From Polaribacter aestuariivivens (lineage in GTDB: Bacteria; Bacteroidota; Bacteroidia; Flavobacteriales; Flavobacteriaceae), in NCBI RefSeq assembly GCF_005885675.1, contig NZ_VANR01000007.1, positions 124,001 to 188,000 on the forward strand: a stretch of DNA of 64,000 nucleotides, in the 5' to 3' direction. Shown here one piece after another: positions 7,893-41,753 of the stretch. Every line of letters begins with the position of its first letter. Position 1 is the stretch's first letter. The notes beneath the pieces were generated by a model that was not told where the DNA came from, did not search any database, and saw only the letters and a program-made list of their open reading frames with translations. The position numbers and the translations under genes were made by a program.

Positions 7893-9668
7893 TTACATTC
7901 TCTCAGGAACCTGAATTCCTAATAAAGAAAATGCTTGTTTTATAGTATCAGCTACTTTTTTAGACAACTGAACTCTAAATACTTTTTTATCTTGATTATC
8001 TTCTCCTAAAATATGCACATTTTGATAAAATGAATTAAATTCTTTTACCAAATCATAGGTATAATTTGCAATAATTGCTGGCGAATAATTGGTAGCCGCT
8101 TGCTGAACTGTTTCAGGAAACAACTCCAATTGTTTCAATAATTCTTTTTCTTTTTCGTGTAATTCAATCGAAACTTGTTTCGAATAATCAAAATCTGCTT
8201 TTCTAATGATAGACTGAATTCTTGCATAGGTATATTGTATAAAAGGTCCTGTGTTTCCTTGAAAATCTACCGAACTTTTTGGGTCAAATAAAATTCTTTT
8301 TTTCGGGTCAACTTTCAAAACAAAATATTTTAAAGCACCCAAACCTATGGTTTTGTACAATTCAGCTTTTTCTTCGTCAGAATAACCATCTAATTTTCCT
8401 AATTCTTCTGATATTTCTTTGGCTGTAGTAGTCATTTCTACCATTAAATCATCAGCATCTACCACAGTACCTTCTCTCGATTTCATTTTTCCTGAAGGTA
8501 AATCTACCATTCCGTAACTTAAATGATGCAATTGTTTTGCCCAATCAAATCCTAATTTCTTCAATATCAAAAACAATACCTGAAAATGATAATCTTGCTC
8601 ATTTCCAACAGTATATACCATACCACCTACGTCTGGAAAATCTTTTACACGTTGTATGGCTGTACCTATATCTTGCGTCATATAAACAGCTGTTCCGTCT
8701 GAACGCAATACAATTTTTTCATCTAATCCATCACCTGTTAAATCGCACCAAACTGAACCATCTTCTTTTTTATAAAAAACGCCTTTTTCTAAACCTTGTG
8801 CAACAACATCTTTTCCTAATAAGTAAGTGTCACTTTCATAATACAACGTATCAAAATTTACACCCATGTTTTTGTAAGTAACATCAAAACCGTTGTAAAC
8901 CCAATTGTTCATGGTTTTCCAAAGTGAAACTACTTTTTCATCTCCAGCTTCCCATTTTTGCAACATTTCTTGAGCTTCAATTAAAAGTGGTGCTTCTTTT
9001 TTTGCTTCTTCCTCGGTTTTTCCTGCTGCAATTAACTGAGAAATTTCCTTTTTATATTCTTGGTCAAATTTTACATAATAATTCCCAACCAATTTATCGC
9101 CTTTTAAACCGGTAGATGCTGGAGTTTCTCCGTTTCCAAATTTTTCCCAAGCCAACATCGACTTGCAAATATGAATTCCTCTATCGTTTATAATTTGCGT
9201 TTTATATACTTTTTTACCTGCTGCTTTTATTATTTCAGCAACAGAATAGCCTAATAAATTATTACGAACGTGACCTAAATGTAAAGGTTTGTTAGTGTTT
9301 GGTGAAGAATATTCAACCATTACAGCTTTTTCATCTGCCTTTGGTGAAACAATACCAAAACTTTCATCAGCATACATTGCATTGAAGAAGTTCGTGTAAA
9401 AAGCGTCATCAATTACCAAGTTTAAAAAGCCTTTTACAACATTATAATTGGTGATTTCTGGAATAGTTGAAACAACATATTTTCCTAAATCTTCTCCTAT
9501 TTGAATAGGATTTCCTTTTTTGTAACGCAACATAGGAAAAACAACAACGGTAATATCTCCTTCAAATTCTTTTCTGGTTGCTTGAAATTCCACAGTAGGA
9601 ATTTCTACATTATATAATGCTAAAAAACCTTCTTTTACTTTGGTTTCTATAGTGTTTTGAATATTCAT
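7893..9668 (-). CDS. argS: Arginyl-tRNA synthetase
   Basis: 591 residues, full-length class I synthetase. The N-terminal arginyl domain is followed by the HIGH motif as HLGH in PNTNKPLHLGHVRNN near residue 128. A KMSKS-region equivalent (SGKMKSREGT) is present, and the DALR anticodon-binding domain ends at VPERM. The enzyme charges tRNA-Arg. Transcribed alone, with an exact -7 box (TAATTTTG) just upstream of the ATG at 9668. Confidence 0.97.
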   Translation of the reverse strand: MNIQNTIETKVKEGFLALYNVEIPTVEFQATRKEFEGDITVVVFPMLRYKKGNPIQIGEDLGKYVVSTIPEITNYNVVKGFLNLVIDDAFYTNFFNAMYADESFGIVSPKADEKAVMVEYSSPNTNKPLHLGHVRNNLLGYSVAEIIKAAGKKVYKTQIINDRGIHICKSMLAWEKFGNGETPASTGLKGDKLVGNYYVKFDQEYKKEISQLIAAGKTEEEAKKEAPLLIEAQEMLQKWEAGDEKVVSLWKTMNNWVYNGFDVTYKNMGVNFDTLYYESDTYLLGKDVVAQGLEKGVFYKKEDGSVWCDLTGDGLDEKIVLRSDGTAVYMTQDIGTAIQRVKDFPDVGGMVYTVGNEQDYHFQVLFLILKKLGFDWAKQLHHLSYGMVDLPSGKMKSREGTVVDADDLMVEMTTTAKEISEELGKLDGYSDEEKAELYKTIGLGALKYFVLKVDPKKRILFDPKSSVDFQGNTGPFIQYTYARIQSIIRKADFDYSKQVSIELHEKEKELLKQLELFPETVQQAATNYSPAIIANYTYDLVKEFNSFYQNVHILGEDNQDKKVFRVQLSKKVADTIKQAFSLLGIQVPERM

Positions 9669-9689
9669 TTACTTTCGAAAATTGAATTG

Positions 9690-9697
9690 CAAAATTA
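9690..9697 (-). promoter_or_regulatory. -7 promoter box TAATTTTG for argS
   Basis: Exact TAnnTTTG match on the minus strand, 21 nt before the argS ATG. Confidence 0.55.
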
Positions 9698-9743
9698 AGA
9701 ATTTTATTTGTTTTTCAGATTGATTTTTGTGGAAGAATAATTG

Positions 9744-9751
9744 TAATTTTG
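9744..9751 (+). promoter_or_regulatory. -7 promoter box TAATTTTG, only 4 nt before the next ATG
   Basis: Exact TAnnTTTG. A TTG at about 9720-9722 lies some 21 nt upstream, close to the expected -33 spacing. The box ends 4 nt before the ATG at 9756, which implies a leaderless or nearly leaderless mRNA. Confidence 0.55.
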
Positions 9752-9755
9752 TAAG

Positions 9756-10280
9756 ATGGAAAAACGCTTACAAGAACTCCCAAAATTAGCACAGGAAGCA
9801 AAGAAAGAAAACGAAAAATATTTTGCGAGATTAAAGAAACGTACACCTAAAAGATTGGATTATTTAATGCAAGAATTGCATGATAAAGAGTTTGAAAAAA
9901 CAGACTGTTTAACGTGTGGAAATTGCTGTAAAACTACCAGCCCTATTTTTACAGATACGGATGTAGAAAGAATTGCAAAACATTTAAAAATGAAAGTTGC
10001 TACTTTTGAAGATCAGTATTTACGTAGAGATGAAGATGATTTTAAGGTTTTAAAATCATCACCTTGTTCTTTTTTAGATTTGTCTGATAATACTTGTTTT
10101 ATCTACAAAGTAAGACCCAAAGCGTGTGCTGAATATCCGCATACAAATCGAAAAAAATTTATTGGAATTACCGATTTAACTATTGCAAATACAGCCATTT
10201 GTCCTGCAGCTTATAATATTGTAGAGAATTTAAAAGAAGTTTTACCTTTAGAAGGAAATAAGAAGGTTAGGAGAAAGTAG
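9756..10280 (+). CDS. YkgJ-family cysteine-cluster protein
   Basis: 174 residues. Cysteine signature: CLTCGNCC near residue 50, PCSFLD...TCFIYKVRPKAC near 105-130, and a further Cys in ICPAAYNI. This is the CxxCxxCC plus C..C..C pattern of the YkgJ family, predicted to bind zinc or an iron-sulfur cluster; the biological role of the family is poorly defined. The N-terminal 35 residues are a charged helix. The gene is preceded by a promoter box only 4 nt from its ATG and is followed by the hydroxylase gene 43 nt downstream. Confidence 0.85.
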   Translation: MEKRLQELPKLAQEAKKENEKYFARLKKRTPKRLDYLMQELHDKEFEKTDCLTCGNCCKTTSPIFTDTDVERIAKHLKMKVATFEDQYLRRDEDDFKVLKSSPCSFLDLSDNTCFIYKVRPKACAEYPHTNRKKFIGITDLTIANTAICPAAYNIVENLKEVLPLEGNKKVRRK

Positions 10281-10323
10281 ATTTTAATATGTTTTCACTA
10301 TTTTAGTACCAAATATAATTATT

Positions 10324-11160
10324 TTGGAAACTATTTTTAATTATTTCGAAACCATACCTTCTTCTCATAGAAGCATTATTTTAGTAGGCGGAATTACTTT
10401 TTTCTGGTTATTAGAAGGTGCAATTCCGTTGTTTAAATTCGATTACAAAAAATGGAAACATGCTATACCTAATTTGTTTTTTACGTTAACAACTGTTATC
10501 ATAAATTTTGCATTGGCCTTTTTATTGTTAAAAACAGCTGATTGGGTTTCTGCAAATAATTTCGGAATTATCAATTGGCTTCCAGAAATGCCATTGTGGT
10601 TGTATGTAGTTTTGGGTGTTTTATTTTTAGATTTTTTTGGAGCCTATTTAGCACATTATACAGAGCACAAAATAAAACCTTTGTGGATGGTGCATTTAGT
10701 ACATCACTCAGATCATAAAGTAGATACAACAACTGCAAACAGACATCATCCTATAGAAAGTGTGATTCGTTTTGCATTTACGTTATTAGGTGTTTTTGTA
10801 GTTGGAACTCCAATTGCAATTGTGTTTATTTATCAATCTATGTCGTTGATTTTTACACAATTTACCCATGCAAATATTAAAATGTCACCAAAAGTAGATA
10901 AATTTTTGAGCTATTTTATTGTCTCTCCAGATATGCACAAGGTGCATCATCATAATATGTTGCCATATACAGATTCTAATTATGGAAATATCTTTTCTAT
11001 TTGGGATAGAATTTTTGGAACGTATTTAGAATTAGATAGAGAGAAAATCGTTTATGGTGTAGATACTTTTCCAGATGAAGTAAAAAATTCGTCTTTAAAA
11101 GAACTATTAAAACAGCCTTTTCAAGGTTATCAAAAGCCTACTGGTGTTGAGGAAGTTTAG
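10324..11160 (+). CDS. Sterol desaturase/fatty acid hydroxylase superfamily membrane protein
   Basis: 278 residues with about four to five membrane helices and the diiron histidine clusters of the superfamily: HYTEH, HLVHH, NRHHP and a later HKVHHHN. Members hydroxylate or desaturate lipids in the membrane; the substrate cannot be told from sequence. It starts at TTG (10324), because no ATG lies near the N-terminus and the first helix begins about residue 16. It may be co-transcribed with the YkgJ-type gene. Confidence 0.85.
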   Translation: METIFNYFETIPSSHRSIILVGGITFFWLLEGAIPLFKFDYKKWKHAIPNLFFTLTTVIINFALAFLLLKTADWVSANNFGIINWLPEMPLWLYVVLGVLFLDFFGAYLAHYTEHKIKPLWMVHLVHHSDHKVDTTTANRHHPIESVIRFAFTLLGVFVVGTPIAIVFIYQSMSLIFTQFTHANIKMSPKVDKFLSYFIVSPDMHKVHHHNMLPYTDSNYGNIFSIWDRIFGTYLELDREKIVYGVDTFPDEVKNSSLKELLKQPFQGYQKPTGVEEV

Positions 11161-11187
11161 TAATTTGTCATGAATAGAAAAACAAAA

Positions 11188-12456
11188 CTATTCATATATC
11201 AAATATTTCTCACGAACAACTTTAAACTTCTCCAAACCATCAATCCAAGTCGCTCTAATTTCTTCTTCAGATAGACCTTGTTCTATTTGTTGTTGCAATT
11301 TTGTATTTCCAGCATGAATGGTAAAAGTACTGCCAAAGAACTTTTCTATTTTAGGAGTTTGTTTGTAAGCATTTATTAAAAAAGATAAGTCAATTTTTGA
11401 TAAATGTGGAGTTTTACTTAAATCTACACCATAACAAATTTTCCCTTTGTGTTTAGGATATTTTGCGCCTTCATTTGCTTTTGGAGTGTAAGAGAAATCT
11501 GTTTTCTTAAAAAATGGTGCTCCATATCTTTGAAATTGATACTTAGTTCCACGTCCAGCATTAATGGTAGTTCCCTCAAAAAAACCTAAACTTGGGTATA
11601 AGTTGATGCTTTTATCATTTGGTAAATTTGGTGAAGGTTTTATGGGTAAAGAATACTTAGATTGATGTGTGTAATTTTGCAAAGGAATCACTTTTAAATC
11701 GCATTGTATTTCGTTTTTCAGCCATTTTTCGCCATTAATCATTTGTCCATATTCGCCAATGGTCATTCCGTAAACTACTGGAACTGGATGTTTACCAACA
11801 AAACTAGTGTGTTTCATTTCTAAAATAGGACCATCTATATAATGTGCATTTGGGTTGGGTCTGTCTAAAATAATCACAGGTATTCCATTTTCAGCACAAG
11901 CTTCCATTACATAGTGCAATGTTGAAATATAGGTATAAAATCTTACGCCAACATCTTGAATGTCAAAAATCATTACATCAATTCCTTTTAATTGTTGTGC
12001 AGAGGGTTTTTTGCTTTTTCCATACAAAGACACTATTGGCAAACCTGTTTTGGTATCAAGACCGTCTTTTACCAATTCAGCAGCATCAGCTTTTCCACGA
12101 AAACCATGTTCTGGAGAAAATACTTTTTTTACGGTAATTCCGCTATAATTATGCAAATAATCTACCAAATGATGTGTTACCTTTTTAGATCCCATTACAT
12201 TAGGTTTAACTTCAGCTCTTTGTAAAACGGATATTACAGAAGTTTGATTTGCTGCTATACCAACATTTTTGTTTTTTAATAAATTTAAATACAAATCAGT
12301 TCTTTCTGCACCTGTTTTAATTTCTAAAACTTCATTTTGTGAACTTTTAACATTCAAGTTTAAATCCTTAACCTTTTTCTGGGCACAAGAAATCAGCTGA
12401 AAATTCAACAATAGAAATAAGAATAAATATGTACTTTTGAAAGGTTTAAAAATCAT
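11188..12456 (-). CDS. NamZ-type exo-beta-N-acetylmuramidase family (DUF1343) lipoprotein
   Basis: 422 residues from ATG at 12456; a TTG two codons earlier is the less likely start. A lipobox-like LISC follows a hydrophobic leader, so it is probably a lipoprotein. Family landmarks: NVGIAANQTSV, the FSPEHGFRG motif, MIFDIQDVGVRFYTYISTL and the RPNP segment. DUF1343/YbbC proteins were shown to be exo-N-acetylmuramidases (NamZ) that remove MurNAc from peptidoglycan ends, so a role in cell-wall recycling is likely. It is divergent from the permease gene with only 7 bp between the starts. Confidence 0.88.
   Translation of the reverse strand: MIFKPFKSTYLFLFLLLNFQLISCAQKKVKDLNLNVKSSQNEVLEIKTGAERTDLYLNLLKNKNVGIAANQTSVISVLQRAEVKPNVMGSKKVTHHLVDYLHNYSGITVKKVFSPEHGFRGKADAAELVKDGLDTKTGLPIVSLYGKSKKPSAQQLKGIDVMIFDIQDVGVRFYTYISTLHYVMEACAENGIPVIILDRPNPNAHYIDGPILEMKHTSFVGKHPVPVVYGMTIGEYGQMINGEKWLKNEIQCDLKVIPLQNYTHQSKYSLPIKPSPNLPNDKSINLYPSLGFFEGTTINAGRGTKYQFQRYGAPFFKKTDFSYTPKANEGAKYPKHKGKICYGVDLSKTPHLSKIDLSFLINAYKQTPKIEKFFGSTFTIHAGNTKLQQQIEQGLSEEEIRATWIDGLEKFKVVREKYLIYE
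12432..12439 (+). promoter_or_regulatory. -7 promoter box TACTTTTG inside the 5' end of the NamZ-type gene
   Basis: Exact TAnnTTTG on the plus strand, within the signal-peptide codons of the divergent gene and 24 nt before the TTG chosen as the permease start (12464). It argues against translation from the earlier TTG at 12437, which overlaps the box. Confidence 0.55.
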
Positions 12457-35511: not shown

Positions 35512-36960
35512 TTATTTTTTTAAGCGAGTTTTAGAGTAACCAAACAAACGCTTTTGTTTTATAAGTTCAGCAATTCCTTCTGGTAACATTTTTTCCCAAC
35601 CTTTTTCACCATTTGTAATCATTTTTAGAACGGTTCTTGAGAAAATTTCAAGAATTTCTGGATCAAAATCTTTAATATCTATAAGTTTTCCATTGTTCTT
35701 AAAGAATTTATACAATTCTTTCATTCTTGGATGCACTTTTAAATTTTCACTATTTATATAATCACCAGACGCTTTGTCTTTATAAGGATACATGTAAACT
35801 TTTAAATCTCTATAAAATAGTTTACCGAAAGCTTCTAAAATTCCACCACTTAAATTACGGTAATATTTCTCGTCAAAAATTTGAATTAAGTTGTAAACTC
35901 CCATAGCAAGCGCCATTCTTTCTTTGGTGAATTCGCTAAAATATTCTACGAGCTTAAAATATTGTTGAAAACTGGTAATCATAACATTTTGTCCTAGAGA
36001 ACAAAGTAATTCAGCTCTGTCTAAAAAATCTCTTTCGTTAATTTTACCTTCTGCAGTTAAATTGCTTAAGGTAATTTCAAAAATTATTTGTGTACGATCT
36101 TCTTCAACTTTATTTTCTGCTAAAAAAAGTTTTTTTGCATTTTCAAACATATCCATATTTACTTTTGTAACAGGTCTAAAACTACCTCTTAAAGCCAATA
36201 TGTTTTTTTTGTACAATACTTGTGCTGGTAATAAGTTGTTTCCATCTGGACCAAACATTACAGCATTTGTCATACCGTTTTTAAGTAATTGCAAACTCAT
36301 TAAACGATTGTCTACATACATAAAACGAGGTCCAGAGAAATTAATCATGTCAATTTCTAGTTGGTCATTACTTAAATTATGGTAAAAAGATTTTACCAAT
36401 TCTTTAGGATTGTCATTTAAATAAAATGCTCCGTAAATTAAATTTACACCTAAAATACCTAATGTTTCTTGTTGTAAACGCGCATCAGTTTCTTTAAAAC
36501 GTAAATGTAAAATAATTTCATTATAGCCCTCAAGAGGATCTAGTTGAAAACGAATACCAACCCAACCATGACCTTTAAACTTTTTAGCAAAATCTATGGT
36601 TGTAACTGTATTTGCGTAACTAAAAAATAATTTATCAGGATGTTTTTCTCTACTTAATCTGTCTTCAATTAAATCTATTTCATGACCTAACATTTTTTTA
36701 AGACGTGGTTGTGTTACATAACGTTTATCTTGTTCTATACCATAAATAGCGTCCGAAAAATCTTTGTCATATGCACTCATTGCTTTTGCAATAGTACCAC
36801 TTGCAGCACCAGATCTAAAAAAATTACGAGCTGTTTCTTGTCCAGCTCCAATTTCAGCAAAAGTTCCGTAAATGTCTGTGTTTAGGTTAATTCTTAAAGC
36901 TTTATTTTTAGTTGTAGGTACACTACTTATTTCTTGATCTCCTCTTAAAGAAATTGCCAT
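35512..36960 (-). CDS. Large conserved cytoplasmic protein of unknown function
   Basis: 482 residues, no signal peptide. The N-terminal MAISLRGDQEISS, the segments FAEIGAGQETARNFFRSG (about 33-50) and FGPDGNNLLPAQVLY (near 230), and many buried aromatic residues are distinctive. Homologues in databases carry conflicting automatic names (TonB receptor, nicotinate-nucleotide adenylyltransferase), neither supported here: there is no barrel, plug or nucleotidyltransferase motif. It stands alone, divergent from the beta-lactamase-fold hydrolase. Function unknown. Confidence 0.8.
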   Translation of the reverse strand: MAISLRGDQEISSVPTTKNKALRINLNTDIYGTFAEIGAGQETARNFFRSGAASGTIAKAMSAYDKDFSDAIYGIEQDKRYVTQPRLKKMLGHEIDLIEDRLSREKHPDKLFFSYANTVTTIDFAKKFKGHGWVGIRFQLDPLEGYNEIILHLRFKETDARLQQETLGILGVNLIYGAFYLNDNPKELVKSFYHNLSNDQLEIDMINFSGPRFMYVDNRLMSLQLLKNGMTNAVMFGPDGNNLLPAQVLYKKNILALRGSFRPVTKVNMDMFENAKKLFLAENKVEEDRTQIIFEITLSNLTAEGKINERDFLDRAELLCSLGQNVMITSFQQYFKLVEYFSEFTKERMALAMGVYNLIQIFDEKYYRNLSGGILEAFGKLFYRDLKVYMYPYKDKASGDYINSENLKVHPRMKELYKFFKNNGKLIDIKDFDPEILEIFSRTVLKMITNGEKGWEKMLPEGIAELIKQKRLFGYSKTRLKK

Positions 36961-37039: not shown

Positions 37040-37822
37040 ATGATAACTATTAAAAAACTGTTAAAGGTTACTTTTTTAGGAACAGGAACTTCGCAAGGTA
37101 TTCCAATGATTGCAAGTAAAGACCCAGTTTGTTTATCTAACAACTTAAAAGATAAACGTTTAAGGTCTTCTGTTTTAATTTCTTGGGATGATGTTTCATA
37201 TGTGATTGATTGTGGTCCAGATTTCCGCCAACAAATGCTACGTGAAAATGTACAATGCATAAAAGGCGTTTTATTTACGCATGAACATGCAGATCATACT
37301 GCAGGATTAGATGATTTACGACCATTTTGTTATCAAATAGGAGAGATGCCTATTTATTTAAATAGCAGAACATTAAAAAGTTTAGAGCAACGATTTGAGT
37401 ATATTTTTTCCAAAGAGAATAGATATCCTGGAGCTCCAAGCGTTACTCCTGTAGTTGTAGAAAATTCTACATTTTTTATTGAAGACTTACAAGTAACTCC
37501 TATACAGGTTTTACACGGAAAATTGTCAATTTTAGGTTATAGATTTCAAAATTTAGCTTATTTAACTGATGTGAAATATATTGCTGAATCTGAAAAATTA
37601 AAACTTAAAAATTTAGACGTTTTAATTGTAAATGCATTAAGAATAGATTCGCACCCAACACATTTAAATTTAGACGAAGCTTTGGAGTTGGTAAAAGAAT
37701 TGCAACCTAAAAAAACTTACTTTACACACATAAGTCACAAATTAGGTTTTCATGAAGAAATCTCAAAAAAACTACCCAAAAATGTGTTCTTAGCTTTTGA
37801 TGGATTAAAAATTGAAGTCTAA
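37040..37822 (+). CDS. Metallo-beta-lactamase-fold hydrolase (PhnP-like phosphodiesterase)
   Basis: 260 residues. Starts LLKVTFLGTGTSQGIPM, then the metal site THEHADHTAGLDDLRP near 82, later DVKYIAESEKL (metal Asp) and FTHISHKLGFHEE (C-terminal His). Closest in layout to PhnP-type phosphoribosyl 1,2-cyclic phosphate phosphodiesterases, although no phosphonate genes are near; another small phosphodiester substrate is possible. Cytoplasmic. Confidence 0.88.
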   Translation: MITIKKLLKVTFLGTGTSQGIPMIASKDPVCLSNNLKDKRLRSSVLISWDDVSYVIDCGPDFRQQMLRENVQCIKGVLFTHEHADHTAGLDDLRPFCYQIGEMPIYLNSRTLKSLEQRFEYIFSKENRYPGAPSVTPVVVENSTFFIEDLQVTPIQVLHGKLSILGYRFQNLAYLTDVKYIAESEKLKLKNLDVLIVNALRIDSHPTHLNLDEALELVKELQPKKTYFTHISHKLGFHEEISKKLPKNVFLAFDGLKIEV

Positions 37823-37935: not shown

Positions 37936-38289
37936 ATGGAAAAAAAGTCAGAAAAAAGCAAAGCTCCAGAAACAGCGCAAGAAGTAGATAGCAGAATTGC
38001 TGCAGTAAGAGACCTTATTTTTGGTGAAAATATTCAGCAATACAATACTGAATTTGCAGATGTTTACGATAAAATAAAAGCGCTACAAAACGAAACCAGA
38101 ACTAATTTATCAGAAGCAGTTTCTAATCTTGAAAACAAACTTGCAGATTTAGAAAGTTTAATGGATCATAAATTTCAAGATTTAAACGACGATTTAGATA
38201 AGAGATTGGCAGATTTAGATGATGATAAAGCAGACAGAAGAAAGTTAGGAAAAGCGCTAGAAAAAATTGCACTAATGTTGCAAGAATAG
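37936..38289 (+). CDS. Coiled-coil protein, first gene of the small-GTPase module
   Basis: 117 residues, cytoplasmic. After a 20-residue polar start come long heptad-like helices (about 35-95: VYDKIKALQNETRTNLSEA, ENKLADLESLMDHKF and DKRLADLDDDKADRRKLG), then a short helix. No enzyme motif. The stop codon abuts the ATG of the next gene. In this unit it probably forms the scaffold or membrane-proximal partner of the GTPase system. No family function is known to me. Confidence 0.75.
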   Translation: MEKKSEKSKAPETAQEVDSRIAAVRDLIFGENIQQYNTEFADVYDKIKALQNETRTNLSEAVSNLENKLADLESLMDHKFQDLNDDLDKRLADLDDDKADRRKLGKALEKIALMLQE

Positions 38290-39102
38290 ATGAAAAAGCC
38301 CACTGAAGATAACAAAAAAGACAATCGTTTTGAGTTGCTCAGAGAACTTTTATTAGAAGATGATAGAGAAAAATTTACTGCTTTAAGTGAAGAAATTATT
38401 GAAAAAGAGAAGCTCTCAAAAAGAGTACAACCTCTTGTAGATGAAAAAATTGAAGATCTTCGTCAAAAATTTCCAGAATATTTTGGAGATACCATTACAG
38501 AAACCATAAAAGTTCAAATTAGAGACTCTCAAGATGAAGTTGTTGAAGCTCTGTACCCAATTATGGGTAAATTAGTTAAAAAAGCTATTGTGAGTGAAAT
38601 AACAAAGTTATCTGACAATATAAACAGAACAATTCAAGAGAAATTTTCACTAAAACAAATACTTACACGTTTTTTTAAAGGAAAAAATAATGATGCAGGA
38701 GTTGTGCTTCAAGAAGTTTTTGAACCTATAATAGAAGAAGTTTTTGTGATTGAAAAAGATTCTGGTTTACTTGCTGGTAATTTTACAAGAGGAAACATTG
38801 CCGATAAAGATATGGTATCTGGAATGTTAACTGCCATCAAATCTTTTGCAGAAGATGCTTTTTCTAAAGAAAATCAAAACTTAGAAGATATTAAATTTGA
38901 TAGTTTTCAACTTACCATAAAAAACTTTAAAACTATTTATATTGCTATTGCAACTTCAGGAGTTTTAAATTCAGAATTTAGAGATCAATTAGCAGATAAT
39001 GTAAATAATTTGGCAGAAGTTATTTTAAGAGATCGAACGTATTTAAAAGACGAATTAAAGCTAAATGCTTTAATTGAAACCTATTTAATTACTCAAAATT
39101 AA
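38290..39102 (+). CDS. Putative GTPase-regulator protein with longin/roadblock-like C-terminal domain
   Basis: 270 residues, no signal peptide. N-terminal half helical and charged (ELLRELLLEDDREKFTALSEEI; then DEVVEALYPIMGKLVKKAI). The C-terminal half (about 150-255) reads like a roadblock/longin sensor fold: VFVIEKDSGLLAGNF, then DKDMVSGMLTAIKSFAEDAF, FQLTIKNFKTIYIAIATSG and a last helix. In MglB and longin proteins such folds regulate small GTPases. The fold call is by pattern only. It overlaps the GTPase gene by one base. Confidence 0.7.
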   Translation: MKKPTEDNKKDNRFELLRELLLEDDREKFTALSEEIIEKEKLSKRVQPLVDEKIEDLRQKFPEYFGDTITETIKVQIRDSQDEVVEALYPIMGKLVKKAIVSEITKLSDNINRTIQEKFSLKQILTRFFKGKNNDAGVVLQEVFEPIIEEVFVIEKDSGLLAGNFTRGNIADKDMVSGMLTAIKSFAEDAFSKENQNLEDIKFDSFQLTIKNFKTIYIAIATSGVLNSEFRDQLADNVNNLAEVILRDRTYLKDELKLNALIETYLITQN

Positions 39103-39587
39103 TGATTGCTAAAAAAGTTTTATTAGTAGGTAATTTTGGTGTTGGTAAAACCTCACTTATTAGAAGGTTTGTGTTAAATCAATTTTCAGAAGATTACATA
39201 AGTACCATTGGCGTTCGTGTAAGCTCTAAAGTTGTAGCTTATGAAAACCAAGAAATAAAATTATTAATTTGGGATGTTGCAGGAACTAGTGGAGATGAAA
39301 AAATACCCAAAGCCTATTTTTTAGGTGCAAGTGCAGCCATGTTTGTGTTTGATGTGAGTAGAGAAGAAACGTATTTAACAATAGACCAACATTTGGCGAG
39401 TATTAAAGCCCTTTCTGGTTTGCAAAACATTACCATTGTTGGCAATAAAAAAGACTTGCTTTCTAAAGACGAATTAGAGGCAGTTCTAGCAAAAATTACC
39501 GTAAAAATAGACTTGATTACAAGTGCAAAAGAAGACGAAAATGTAGAAGACGCATTTTTAAAATTAACCGCTCAAGCTTTAAAATAA
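39102..39587 (+). CDS. Rab-like small GTPase with Thr in place of catalytic Gln
   Basis: 161 residues, one G domain. G1 GNFGVGKTS at 10-18, G2 Thr35 in ISTIGV, G3 WDVAGT at 57-62, G4 NKKD at 115-118, G5 TSAK at 140-143. In Ras/Rab proteins Gln follows the DxxG of G3; here it is Thr62, so intrinsic hydrolysis should be slow and depend on a partner. No C-terminal lipidation Cys. Encoded between a putative longin/roadblock protein and a hybrid histidine kinase, all overlapping or a few bases apart. Confidence 0.9.
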   Translation: MIAKKVLLVGNFGVGKTSLIRRFVLNQFSEDYISTIGVRVSSKVVAYENQEIKLLIWDVAGTSGDEKIPKAYFLGASAAMFVFDVSREETYLTIDQHLASIKALSGLQNITIVGNKKDLLSKDELEAVLAKITVKIDLITSAKEDENVEDAFLKLTAQALK

Positions 39588-39592
39588 ACCTC

Positions 39593-41116
39593 TTGATACC
39601 TGCAAAAATAGAAGATGTTTTTATACAAGTTACTACAGATTTTTCTGGAGTAATAACAAACATTGTAGCAGGTAAATTTGCAGAAAAAGCATTCCAAATT
39701 CACAGTTCTATTTTCAAAACATGCCCTTTTTTAGAAGGTACACTCGAAGCTTTGGAACACCAACAACAGTTTACATTAGAGACTATGGTTATTGACTTTA
39801 ATTCTGTTGAATATAATGTAGATATTGAACTTTTTAAAGAGGAACAAAATATTAGTGTTTTAATTCATAACAGAACCAATGTTTACAAAATTGTAGAGCA
39901 GCTAAACCAAAACAGAAACGATATTTTTTTTATAAAGAGAGAGCTTGCAGAAAAAAACGAAGAACTTAAAAAACTACGTAAAATTGCAGACAAAGCGAAT
40001 GAAGAAAAATCACGTTTTTTAGCAATGATGAGTCATGAAATTAGAAATCCGTTAAATGTTATTTTAGGATATTCTGAAATGATTTCTCAAGAAAAAATTA
40101 ATGATAACGTAGCACAATACGCAAAATTATTAGCAATTTCAGGAAATAATTTAAAAGTAATTGTAAACGATATTTTAGATTTATCTAGAATTGAAGCTGG
40201 TAAATTAGAGTTGATACATACAGTAATAAATATCAACGAAATTGTTACAAACTGTGTTGAAAACTATAGATTACAAAATAAAAATTCAGCAGTAGAATTA
40301 CTCTTAAATATTGAAAATAAAATCCCTGAAAATATTTTAGGTGATCAAGTACGAATCAATCAAATTTTATCAAATTTACTTTCAAACGCAGTAAAATTTA
40401 CTCAAAAAGGCAAAATTTCAGTAGATGTTAAAATGGAATATGATAATAGTGATTCTACAAAAATAGTATTTCTAGTATCTGATTCTGGTAGAGGAATGAC
40501 TAGTTTACAGGCTTCTAAAATTTTTGACGAATATCAACAAAATAAAAAAAGTGATAATAGAGTTTTTGGAGGTGCAGGTTTGGGTTTGTCAATCGTAAAA
40601 AGACTATTGAAAGAAATGAAAGGAAGCATTTCTGTAAAAAGTACCTTAAATGAAGGAAGTGTTTTTAAAGTTGAAATTCCTTTTTTAAAAGGAAACAGCT
40701 CAAAAATAATTGAATCTGAAATAGAGGAAAATTCAAGTATTAAAAGTATTGTAAATAAAAGAATTTTAGTAGCTGATGATGATGCTTTAAATCAAACCAT
40801 TGTAGCTCACATACTCGCAAAAGAAAATGTAATTTTAACCCAAGTTAAAGATGGGTTAGAAGCTTTAAATATTTTAAAAACAACTACTTTCGATTTGGTG
40901 TTATTAGATATTCACATGCCAAACATTACTGGCGAACAACTAATGCAACAAAAAAATGAATTTCATCAATCTAACAGAGTAACTCCTTTTTTAGCGTTAA
41001 CAGCAAACACAACTAAAGAAGATTTAGAAAGATATTACCATATTGGTTTTGTAGATGTTATTTCTAAGCCTTACACTGCTGTTGAGTTTGTCGAAAAAAT
41101 GAAGAAGAATATATAG
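39593..41116 (+). CDS. Hybrid sensor histidine kinase with receiver domain, last gene of the GTPase module
   Basis: 507 residues from a TTG start (39593) 5 nt after the GTPase stop. Domains: PAS-like fold (about 1-105), coiled coil (about 110-140), HisKA with H148 in MSHEIRNPLN, HATPase (about 255-370; GVFGGAGLGLSIVKRL-type G box), and a receiver (about 390-505) with phospho-acceptor D439 in LLDIHMP and the switch Lys in SKPYT. No membrane helix, so it senses a cytoplasmic cue, plausibly the state of the neighbouring GTPase. No output domain. Confidence 0.9.
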   Translation: MIPAKIEDVFIQVTTDFSGVITNIVAGKFAEKAFQIHSSIFKTCPFLEGTLEALEHQQQFTLETMVIDFNSVEYNVDIELFKEEQNISVLIHNRTNVYKIVEQLNQNRNDIFFIKRELAEKNEELKKLRKIADKANEEKSRFLAMMSHEIRNPLNVILGYSEMISQEKINDNVAQYAKLLAISGNNLKVIVNDILDLSRIEAGKLELIHTVININEIVTNCVENYRLQNKNSAVELLLNIENKIPENILGDQVRINQILSNLLSNAVKFTQKGKISVDVKMEYDNSDSTKIVFLVSDSGRGMTSLQASKIFDEYQQNKKSDNRVFGGAGLGLSIVKRLLKEMKGSISVKSTLNEGSVFKVEIPFLKGNSSKIIESEIEENSSIKSIVNKRILVADDDALNQTIVAHILAKENVILTQVKDGLEALNILKTTTFDLVLLDIHMPNITGEQLMQQKNEFHQSNRVTPFLALTANTTKEDLERYYHIGFVDVISKPYTAVEFVEKMKKNI

Positions 41117-41209: not shown

Positions 41210-41270
41210 AATAGCGGTTCAAGTTGATACTCAAACCGCTATTGCTTATATAGGTTGTTAGGCACTGGCT
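41210..41270 (+). repeat. Left-end cassette element L1: hairpin plus GTTAGGCACTGGCT
   Basis: A 34-nt hairpin (AATAGCGGTTCAAGT / ACTCAAACCGCTATT, 41210-41243, with a 2x2 internal loop) is followed by GCTTA and GTTAGGCACTGGCT (41257-41270). The last base abuts the stop codon of the SRPBCC gene. A related element is at 45314-45372, and an inverted copy of GTTAGGCAC lies at 43810-43818. It may also act as the terminator for the convergent genes. Confidence 0.6.
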
Positions 41271-41753
41271 TTATTTCACCAATTTAATTATGTTTTCTAC
41301 CATTTCTACTCGAGCACTCGTTATAAATCCATCAAATTGCTCTTTGGTCATATTCGGATTCTCGACAAATTCATAGTTTGATGTCCAAACAATCATCGAT
41401 TTGTTAAACCCTAAATCAACTACTTTAATCATATTGTTCATGTTTTTAGCTGGCACGCCTTCTATTACTTGATACGAATACGTTCGGGTTTTATCATCAA
41501 ATCCTGTTATCTTTTCCTTGAAATAACCATTTCCGTCTGCAGAAGTACAAACTCTTTCGCCACCAATACCTTTTGGACCTTTCCATTGTACTTTTGATAC
41601 AAAAGATGATAGCTCATCAATATTGTCCATTTTTCGAATTTGCTCCCAAACTTTATCTGCTGAACTTTCAATTTCTGTTACTAATGGCGTTTGAGCTTGC
41701 AACATCGTAGTTGCAGAAATTAATAAGATAAATAAAATTGTTACTTTTTTCAT
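41271..41753 (-). CDS. Secreted SRPBCC-fold (polyketide cyclase-like) protein
   Basis: 160 residues with a signal peptide ending near LQAQ. The mature part has the START/SRPBCC pattern: early helix (SADKVWEQIRKMDNIDELSSFV), beta strands with GERVCT and YSYQVIEG, and a C-terminal helix (FITSARVEMVENIIKLVK). The fold binds hydrophobic ligands; the ligand is unknown. Last gene of the cluster with a second SRPBCC protein, a SnoaL-like protein and an ECF sigma factor. Confidence 0.82.
   Translation of the reverse strand: MKKVTILFILLISATTMLQAQTPLVTEIESSADKVWEQIRKMDNIDELSSFVSKVQWKGPKGIGGERVCTSADGNGYFKEKITGFDDKTRTYSYQVIEGVPAKNMNNMIKVVDLGFNKSMIVWTSNYEFVENPNMTKEQFDGFITSARVEMVENIIKLVK

Follow-up and report, generated by a model that had tools for sequence, protein, structure and literature searches.

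The module and its inheritance

In a 64,000-nt stretch of the Polaribacter aestuariivivens genome (here called the window), positions 37936–41116 carry a compact module of four genes, labelled CC, LON, RUP and HHK in order of position. They encode a coiled-coil protein, a protein with a predicted longin domain, a Rab-like small GTPase and a hybrid histidine kinase (Table 1). The TAG stop codon of CC and the ATG of LON are adjacent (38289/38290), LON and RUP overlap by 1 nt (39102), and 5 nt separate RUP from HHK. These spacings and the four open reading frames had been described in an earlier note made from the sequence alone, and they are exactly as given there. Spacing and conservation together suggest that all four genes are carried on one mRNA. 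A promoter scan gave a yield no higher than that obtained with shuffled sequence, and neither CC nor LON has a Pfam match above the curated cut-off.

The Rup family of small GTPases was defined by Wuichet and Sogaard-Andersen in 2014, who also described the gene neighbourhoods of its Group 1 (PMC4316618). Group 1 Rup genes have as neighbours a coiled-coil protein, a protein with a conserved domain that is often followed by a transmembrane (TM) segment and OmpA, and an output protein. The outputs are diguanylate cyclases/phosphodiesterases or histidine kinases with an invariant Gln in the N-terminus, and Bacteroidetes members have been reported (PMC4316618). The window module displays Ras-like G1–G5 motifs, a G3 motif without Gln, coiled-coil and conserved-domain neighbours, and a Gln (Q106) in the output protein. 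Every feature tested fits, and on its sequence the module almost certainly belongs to Group 1, in an untethered form.

Table 1. Features of the four-gene module (window positions; residue numbers are those of the protein named)
Feature	Description	Position	Strand	Basis
CC	117-aa cytoplasmic coiled-coil protein; N-terminal IRDLIFGEN and C-terminal KxDRxxL motifs, both conserved	37936..38289	+	Open reading frame, homologue columns
LON	270 aa; helical region and predicted longin domain	38290..39102	+	Open reading frame, AlphaFold2, VIA-align
LON helical region	Residues 9–118	~38314-38643	+	AlphaFold2 model
LON longin domain (predicted)	Residues 147–270	~38728-39099	+	AlphaFold2 model
RUP	161-aa Rab-like small GTPase	39102..39587	+	Pfam Ras 2e-33
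RUP G1, Phe codon	Phe at the Gly12 position of the G1 motif GNFGVGKT	39135-39137	+	Sequence motif
RUP G3, Thr62 codon	Thr that follows the G3 motif WDVAG, instead of the catalytic Gln	39285-39287	+	Sequence motif
HHK	507-aa cytoplasmic hybrid histidine kinase (adapter, HisKA, HATPase, receiver); TTG start	39593..41116	+	Pfam
HHK adapter	PAS fold (residues 10–93) and signalling helix (residues 95–144)	39620..40024	+	AlphaFold2, Foldseek, VIA
HHK Q106	Gln of the QxRN motif in the signalling helix; candidate in-trans catalytic Gln	39908..39910	+	Conservation
HHK HisKA	Dimerisation/phosphoacceptor domain	40007..40201	+	Pfam PF00512 1.4e-19
HHK HATPase_c	Catalytic domain	40340..40684	+	Pfam PF02518 1.1e-24
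HHK receiver	C-terminal, without output domain	40763..41101	+	Pfam PF00072 3e-21

The order CC-LON-RUP-HHK is found in all 13 genus relatives that have LON, at the same genomic place, with the genes of a metallo-beta-lactamase-fold protein and a conserved 482-aa protein as neighbours. Among 29 genus relatives, these 13 have LON together with a true RUP, and the other 16 have neither. The 16 are near-complete genomes in which the flanking gene pair stays together and the module is cleanly missing, leaving an empty site; their one weak RUP match lies inside a 484-aa frame and is not a true RUP. In a tree of the two flanking proteins all module carriers of the genus form a single clade, and therefore the presence of the module within the genus represents about one event of gain or loss.

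A scan of named genomes gave 80 loci, from Flavobacteriaceae, Cyclobacteriaceae/Flammeovirgaceae, Chitinophagales and one metagenome-assembled genome labelled Gammaproteobacteria. All four genes are present in order at 74 of these; each of the remaining loci runs into a contig end, is interrupted, or has a CC or output gene that went undetected. Median intergenic gaps across loci are 13, -8 and 2 nt (CC-LON, LON-RUP and RUP-output, respectively), and the nearest named loci are those of Polaribacter, with LON sequences 82–84% identical. Thus the homologues are not scattered or unlinked, their arrangement goes well beyond chance, and the compact module of the earlier note proves to be a conserved one. 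Because order and presence hold both in the genus and at the named loci, LON and RUP have been inherited together across much of the phylum.

In CC, residues I28, F29, G30, K98 and R101 are conserved at 91–99% in 106 homologues. The N-terminal motifs of CC and LON look alike (both resemble xLRxLLfGxE), but hhalign assigned a probability of just 9–23% to their homology, and no claim is made for it.

Two further observations concern the surroundings. The 482-aa protein (35512-36960, minus strand) has no significant Pfam match, and its gene adjoins the metallo-beta-lactamase-fold gene (37040-37822) in 30 of 30 same-genus genomes examined. On the other side, a 15-pair stem-loop at 41210-41243 lies between HHK and a convergent SRPBCC-like gene (41271-41753), and looks like the terminator of this minus-strand gene.

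Predicted folds and conserved residues

LON was modelled with AlphaFold2 using 73 homologues. The model has a pLDDT (predicted local distance difference test score) of 74.8 overall, above 80 over most of the C-terminal domain and low at residues 119–135. It places strands at residues 147–155 and 161–166, a helix at 173–190, strands at 200–203/206–212 and 216–223, and helices at 228–247 and 255–267; a short, low-confidence helix (136–143) stands ahead of strand 1. The predicted order of strand-strand-helix-three strands-two helices (bb-a-bbb-aa) is the longin topology. A longin has a pair of helices at its C-terminus, where a roadblock has a single helix at its N-terminus (PMC10933270).

Comparison with known structures points the same way. 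Longin-type chains occupy nearly all of the top VIA-align rows for residues 147–270, with Z scores of 13.2 for TRAPP Trs23 (117 residues, 2.4 Å), 12.8 for AP sigma, 12.7 for Vamp7, 12.1 for CPLANE Fuzzy and 11.9 for Mon1-Ccz1. The best roadblock is at rank 48 (Z 10.6; 100 residues, 145–249). Foldseek gives longins and roadblocks at similar E-values, near 1e-3. A structure search with the kinase adapter, a related PAS fold, produced another list, one of PAS domains. At the sequence level, members of the LON family match Fuz_longin_1 (10 of 73) and Intu_longin_1 (5 of 73) at E≤1, all of the inspected matches being below the curated cut-off and the best, to Fuz_longin_1, having an E-value of 0.0012; these weak matches, to the longins of FUZ/MON1/HPS1 and INTU/CCZ1/HPS4, agree in direction with the structure. 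A PDB profile search with LON found no match. No roadblock family was matched by the four window proteins or their immediate neighbours, nor is one among the most-matched families of set A3. The C-terminal domain of LON very probably has a longin fold, as judged from the model, and the longin/roadblock-like guess in the earlier note can be narrowed to its longin half.

Twelve distant LON homologues are about 600 aa in length, and window LON is homologous to their first part. All 12 have a TM-like stretch, and in L046, the one tested, Pfam finds OmpA. No TM-like hydrophobic stretch is found in window LON or in any of 96 short-form loci. The Bacteroidia form of LON has thus lost, or never had, the peptidoglycan-binding anchor. 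Longins are known as platforms for Rab guanine nucleotide exchange factors (GEFs) in TRAPP, Mon1-Ccz1 and CPLANE (PMC10933270, PMC5216073, PMC6864590).

The assignment of RUP as Rab-like, already made in the earlier note, stands: in addition to the Pfam match, its closest solved sequences in a search of the PDB are Rab1 proteins. In columns of 101 homologues, the P-loop reads GxFGVGKT/S, and Phe occupies the Gly12 position in 94 of them. The G3 motif is WDxxG, and its Asp (D58) is present in all 101. At the position of the catalytic Gln (Gln61), Gln is found in five homologues only, with Thr in 43, Glu in 20 and Asn in 19. NKxD and SAK are intact across the homologues (NKKD and TSAK in the window). 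Thr at the G3 Asp position is a hallmark of MglA (PMC3000849). Since RUP homologues keep the Asp without exception, RUP falls outside the MglA family.

Pfam places all three of the kinase domains called in the earlier note, with the receiver terminal and no output domain behind it. The PAS call fares differently in that Pfam has no PAS match in HHK, yet the predicted N-terminal structure is a PAS fold. The model of residues 1–145 (pLDDT 89.5) shows a PAS domain followed by a single helix, 95–144, which leads into HisKA; the predicted PAS domain is matched by Foldseek with an E-value of 3e-4 (3bwl) and by VIA with Z 10–11.5. Within the signalling helix, as aligned, Q106 and N109 are each present in 96 of 98 outputs and R/K108 in 95. 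The two apparent Gln exceptions are due to an alignment shift and a wrongly framed open reading frame (L052, L056), and both kinases do carry the Gln.

The adapter is borne by a range of proteins. Sigma-54 activators with HTH_8 have the adapter and no kinase, as found by Pfam in L046 and seen in two close homologues of it, L047 and L054. PAS-rich kinases bear it in L104 and L114, and a second adapter-kinase follows the first in six loci (Lacinutrix, Bizionia). Free-standing adapters of 116–223 aa are encoded between LON and RUP (L109, L110, L143) or alongside a second RUP (L134, L136, L139, L146), and all eight free-standing adapters have the Gln. The four loci of the latter type show a regular layout, with one Rup gene followed by the free-standing adapter of about 200 aa and the other Rup gene followed by a kinase. 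Because the adapter stays while the rest of the protein changes, RUP and the adapter behave as a pair, with the adapter-bearing protein on the output side.

A proposed route from GTPase to phosphorelay

The following scheme is proposed. CC and LON would receive an input, which the OmpA form would sense at the envelope and the window form in the cytoplasm. LON, together with CC, would form the regulatory platform: probably a dimer of longin domains set on a helical stalk, it would bind RUP and control which nucleotide RUP carries, either as an exchange factor or as a scaffold. GTP-bound RUP would dock on the PAS-plus-helix adapter of HHK and shift the signalling helix, which would switch the kinase/phosphatase balance and turn the phosphorelay up or down. 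Q106 would complete the catalytic site of RUP, aiding GTP hydrolysis and reset, and the effector would in this way also end the signal. Phosphate would pass from His to the receiver Asp, then to a separate HPt and on to a LytTR-type DNA-binding regulator. The sequences themselves show the gene set and its conservation, the domain identities (two of them through structure prediction), the missing Gln of RUP, the invariant Gln of the adapter and the exchange of outputs; complex formation, the direction of signalling, catalysis in trans and the HPt/LytTR exit in the window's genome are inferred.

The combination of a Gln-less Rup GTPase with an invariant output Gln was first noted by Wuichet and Sogaard-Andersen in 2014, who suggested that the Gln acts in trans (PMC4316618). 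That Q106 of the adapter supplies it for RUP is a possibility that falls short of being probable.

The earlier note had left it undecided whether the GTPase gates the kinase or the reverse. Gating by the GTPase fits better because the outputs are swapped, between kinase and sigma-54 activator, and the adapter stays; signalling thus likely runs from GTPase to output. The reverse wiring, in which the kinase senses via PAS and controls RUP, and RUP is itself the output, has been proposed for the actinobacterial conservons (kinase, roadblock, GTPase and an uncharacterised protein) and by analogy for Group 1 Rup (PMC4316618), and a kinase whose terminal receiver is followed by no output domain would be in keeping with it. 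However, the sigma-54 activators that carry the adapter without a kinase indicate that the adapter-bearing protein is the output, and the kinase has an exit of its own in the LytTR regulators found with it in several lineages. Such a wiring seems unlikely here.

Perhaps the adapter PAS domain and Q106 are solely a GTPase-activating protein (GAP) that resets RUP and sends no signal to the kinase, the true effector being LON, CC or an unlinked protein. An invariant Gln opposite a Gln-less GTPase suits this idea, as do the short adapter-only proteins, which have no effector domain. Nearly every locus, on the other hand, joins the adapter covalently to strong output domains, and the Gln sits on the helix that leads into HisKA, which makes a GAP-only adapter improbable. 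About as doubtful is a GAP role for LON, comparable to that of MglB towards MglA, with the adapter Gln having a structural role in its helix. The most conserved segment of LON is indeed its central helix, with invariant M179, L180 and A182, but none of the Gln, Arg and Asn residues in LON reaches the conservation of Q106, and MglB-type partners are not predicted for Group 1 Rup (PMC4316618).

The proposal in the earlier note of an MglA/MglB-type polarity module for gliding or surface sensing was founded on a GTPase gene beside that of a roadblock/longin-superfamily protein. It was rejected on three grounds and can be regarded as very improbable: the G3 Asp is kept in RUP where MglA has Thr (PMC3000849), the partner is predicted to be of the longin and not the roadblock type, and the gliding gene product GldJ is found above the family cut-off in every one of the 30 genomes tested from the same genus or family, whether they are module carriers or not. 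The module therefore does not track gliding at the genus/family level.

As to the exit of the phosphorelay, Pfam finds a single HPt in the window's genome, in a 105-aa protein (G000:C1:620978-621199), which is followed by a LytTR response regulator in a two-gene unit. This regulator is 61% identical to that of L097, where, as in L098, a receiver, a 635-aa kinase, an HPt and a LytTR regulator come directly after the Rup module (~9000-12366). A LytTR regulator gene is downstream of the kinase in six Cyclobacteriaceae-type loci (L099, L103, L111, L112, L130, L131) and directly upstream of CC in L133. LytTR regulators thus adjoin the module in three other lineages and lie at a separate locus in the window's genome. 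The long-type kinase of L100 has a weak C-terminal HPt match, and the C-terminus of the L103 kinase can be aligned, weakly, with the HPt of the window's genome. Within the genus, the LytTR regulator is present in 14 of 14 module carriers vs none of six among the nearest genomes.

One module carrier, G016, has two in-frame stops in the kinase (L039 9649-11187) and one in the unlinked LytTR gene (L177 776-1474), with CC, LON, RUP and HPt all intact. This is consistent with shared decay of the kinase and the LytTR regulator, and the output branch may be decaying first. Separately, another kinase homologue in the window's genome (G000:C6:14629-15684) has an in-frame TAA inside the matched region. 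It should be pointed out that other hybrid kinases in the window's genome could share the same HPt. An exit of HHK phosphate through the separate HPt and LytTR regulator is put forward tentatively, at somewhat less than an even chance.

Several points weigh against the scheme. It is a predicted model that underlies the longin assignment, and the sequence matches beside it are weak. A search of the available literature found no experimental work on Rup GTPases. Mean-field covariation over 87 paired modules (effective number about 63) was dominated by phylogeny, and since RUP paired with the receiver, as negative control, gave a score similar to that of RUP with the adapter, inter-protein covariation is uninformative. 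Because the module carriers are one clade, the co-occurrence with HPt/LytTR amounts to about one evolutionary event and has been demoted as evidence; LytTR paralogues are also numerous, with near-equal copies in the L097 genome. Taken as a whole, the sequence from regulator to GTPase to adapter to kinase is held to be evenly poised between right and wrong. The broadest form of the idea must be considered rather unlikely. It would have a true bacterial longin, outside the Asgard archaea and eukaryotes, activate a Rab-like GTPase that is coupled to a portable PAS-helix adapter supplying Gln in trans, and so link GTPase switches to phosphorelays or sigma-54 regulators.

Relation to known systems

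The earlier note took the pairing of a GTPase with a phosphorelay to be unusual, but it was already published in 2014 as Group 1 Rup (PMC4316618). The class was catalogued then, and its second protein has until now been without an assigned fold. New here are the predicted longin and PAS identities, the free-standing adapters, the sigma-54 outputs and the proposed HPt/LytTR exit. If the longin prediction is true, a longin and a Rab-like GTPase are encoded together in one compact bacterial operon; pairs of this kind are mostly discussed in the context of Asgard archaea and eukaryotes. A GTPase that lacks the catalytic Gln, opposite an adapter in which a Gln is invariant, offers a directly testable idea, that of an effector acting as its own GAP. 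Lacking a membrane anchor, the soluble Bacteroidia form should lend itself to reconstitution from five or six small proteins; the module might therefore serve as a simple bacterial test bed for the control of other proteins by Rab-like switches.

Group 1 Rup systems have the same four components as the window module (PMC4316618). Their second protein often has the TM segment and OmpA, whereas the window protein and those of all 96 short-form loci are short and soluble. A histidine kinase, a roadblock-superfamily protein, a small GTPase and an uncharacterised protein also share an operon in the actinobacterial conservons (CvnABCD; MglA Group 2). The conservons differ in having an MglA-type GTPase, an MglB-type roadblock and no response regulator, in place of the Rup-type GTPase, the predicted longin-type partner and the receiver carried on the kinase in the window. 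The MglA/MglB switch also joins a small GTPase to a partner of the roadblock/longin superfamily, but GTPase family, partner topology and genomic company are different.

The eukaryotic Rab GEF platforms (TRAPP Bet5/Trs23, Mon1-Ccz1 and CPLANE Fuzzy-Inturned) share the predicted longin fold with LON (Z 11–13), which in the case of LON is encoded beside a Rab-like GTPase. LON differs from them in a sequence identity of about 10–15%, in its helical stalk and in being bacterial, and its exchange activity is putative.

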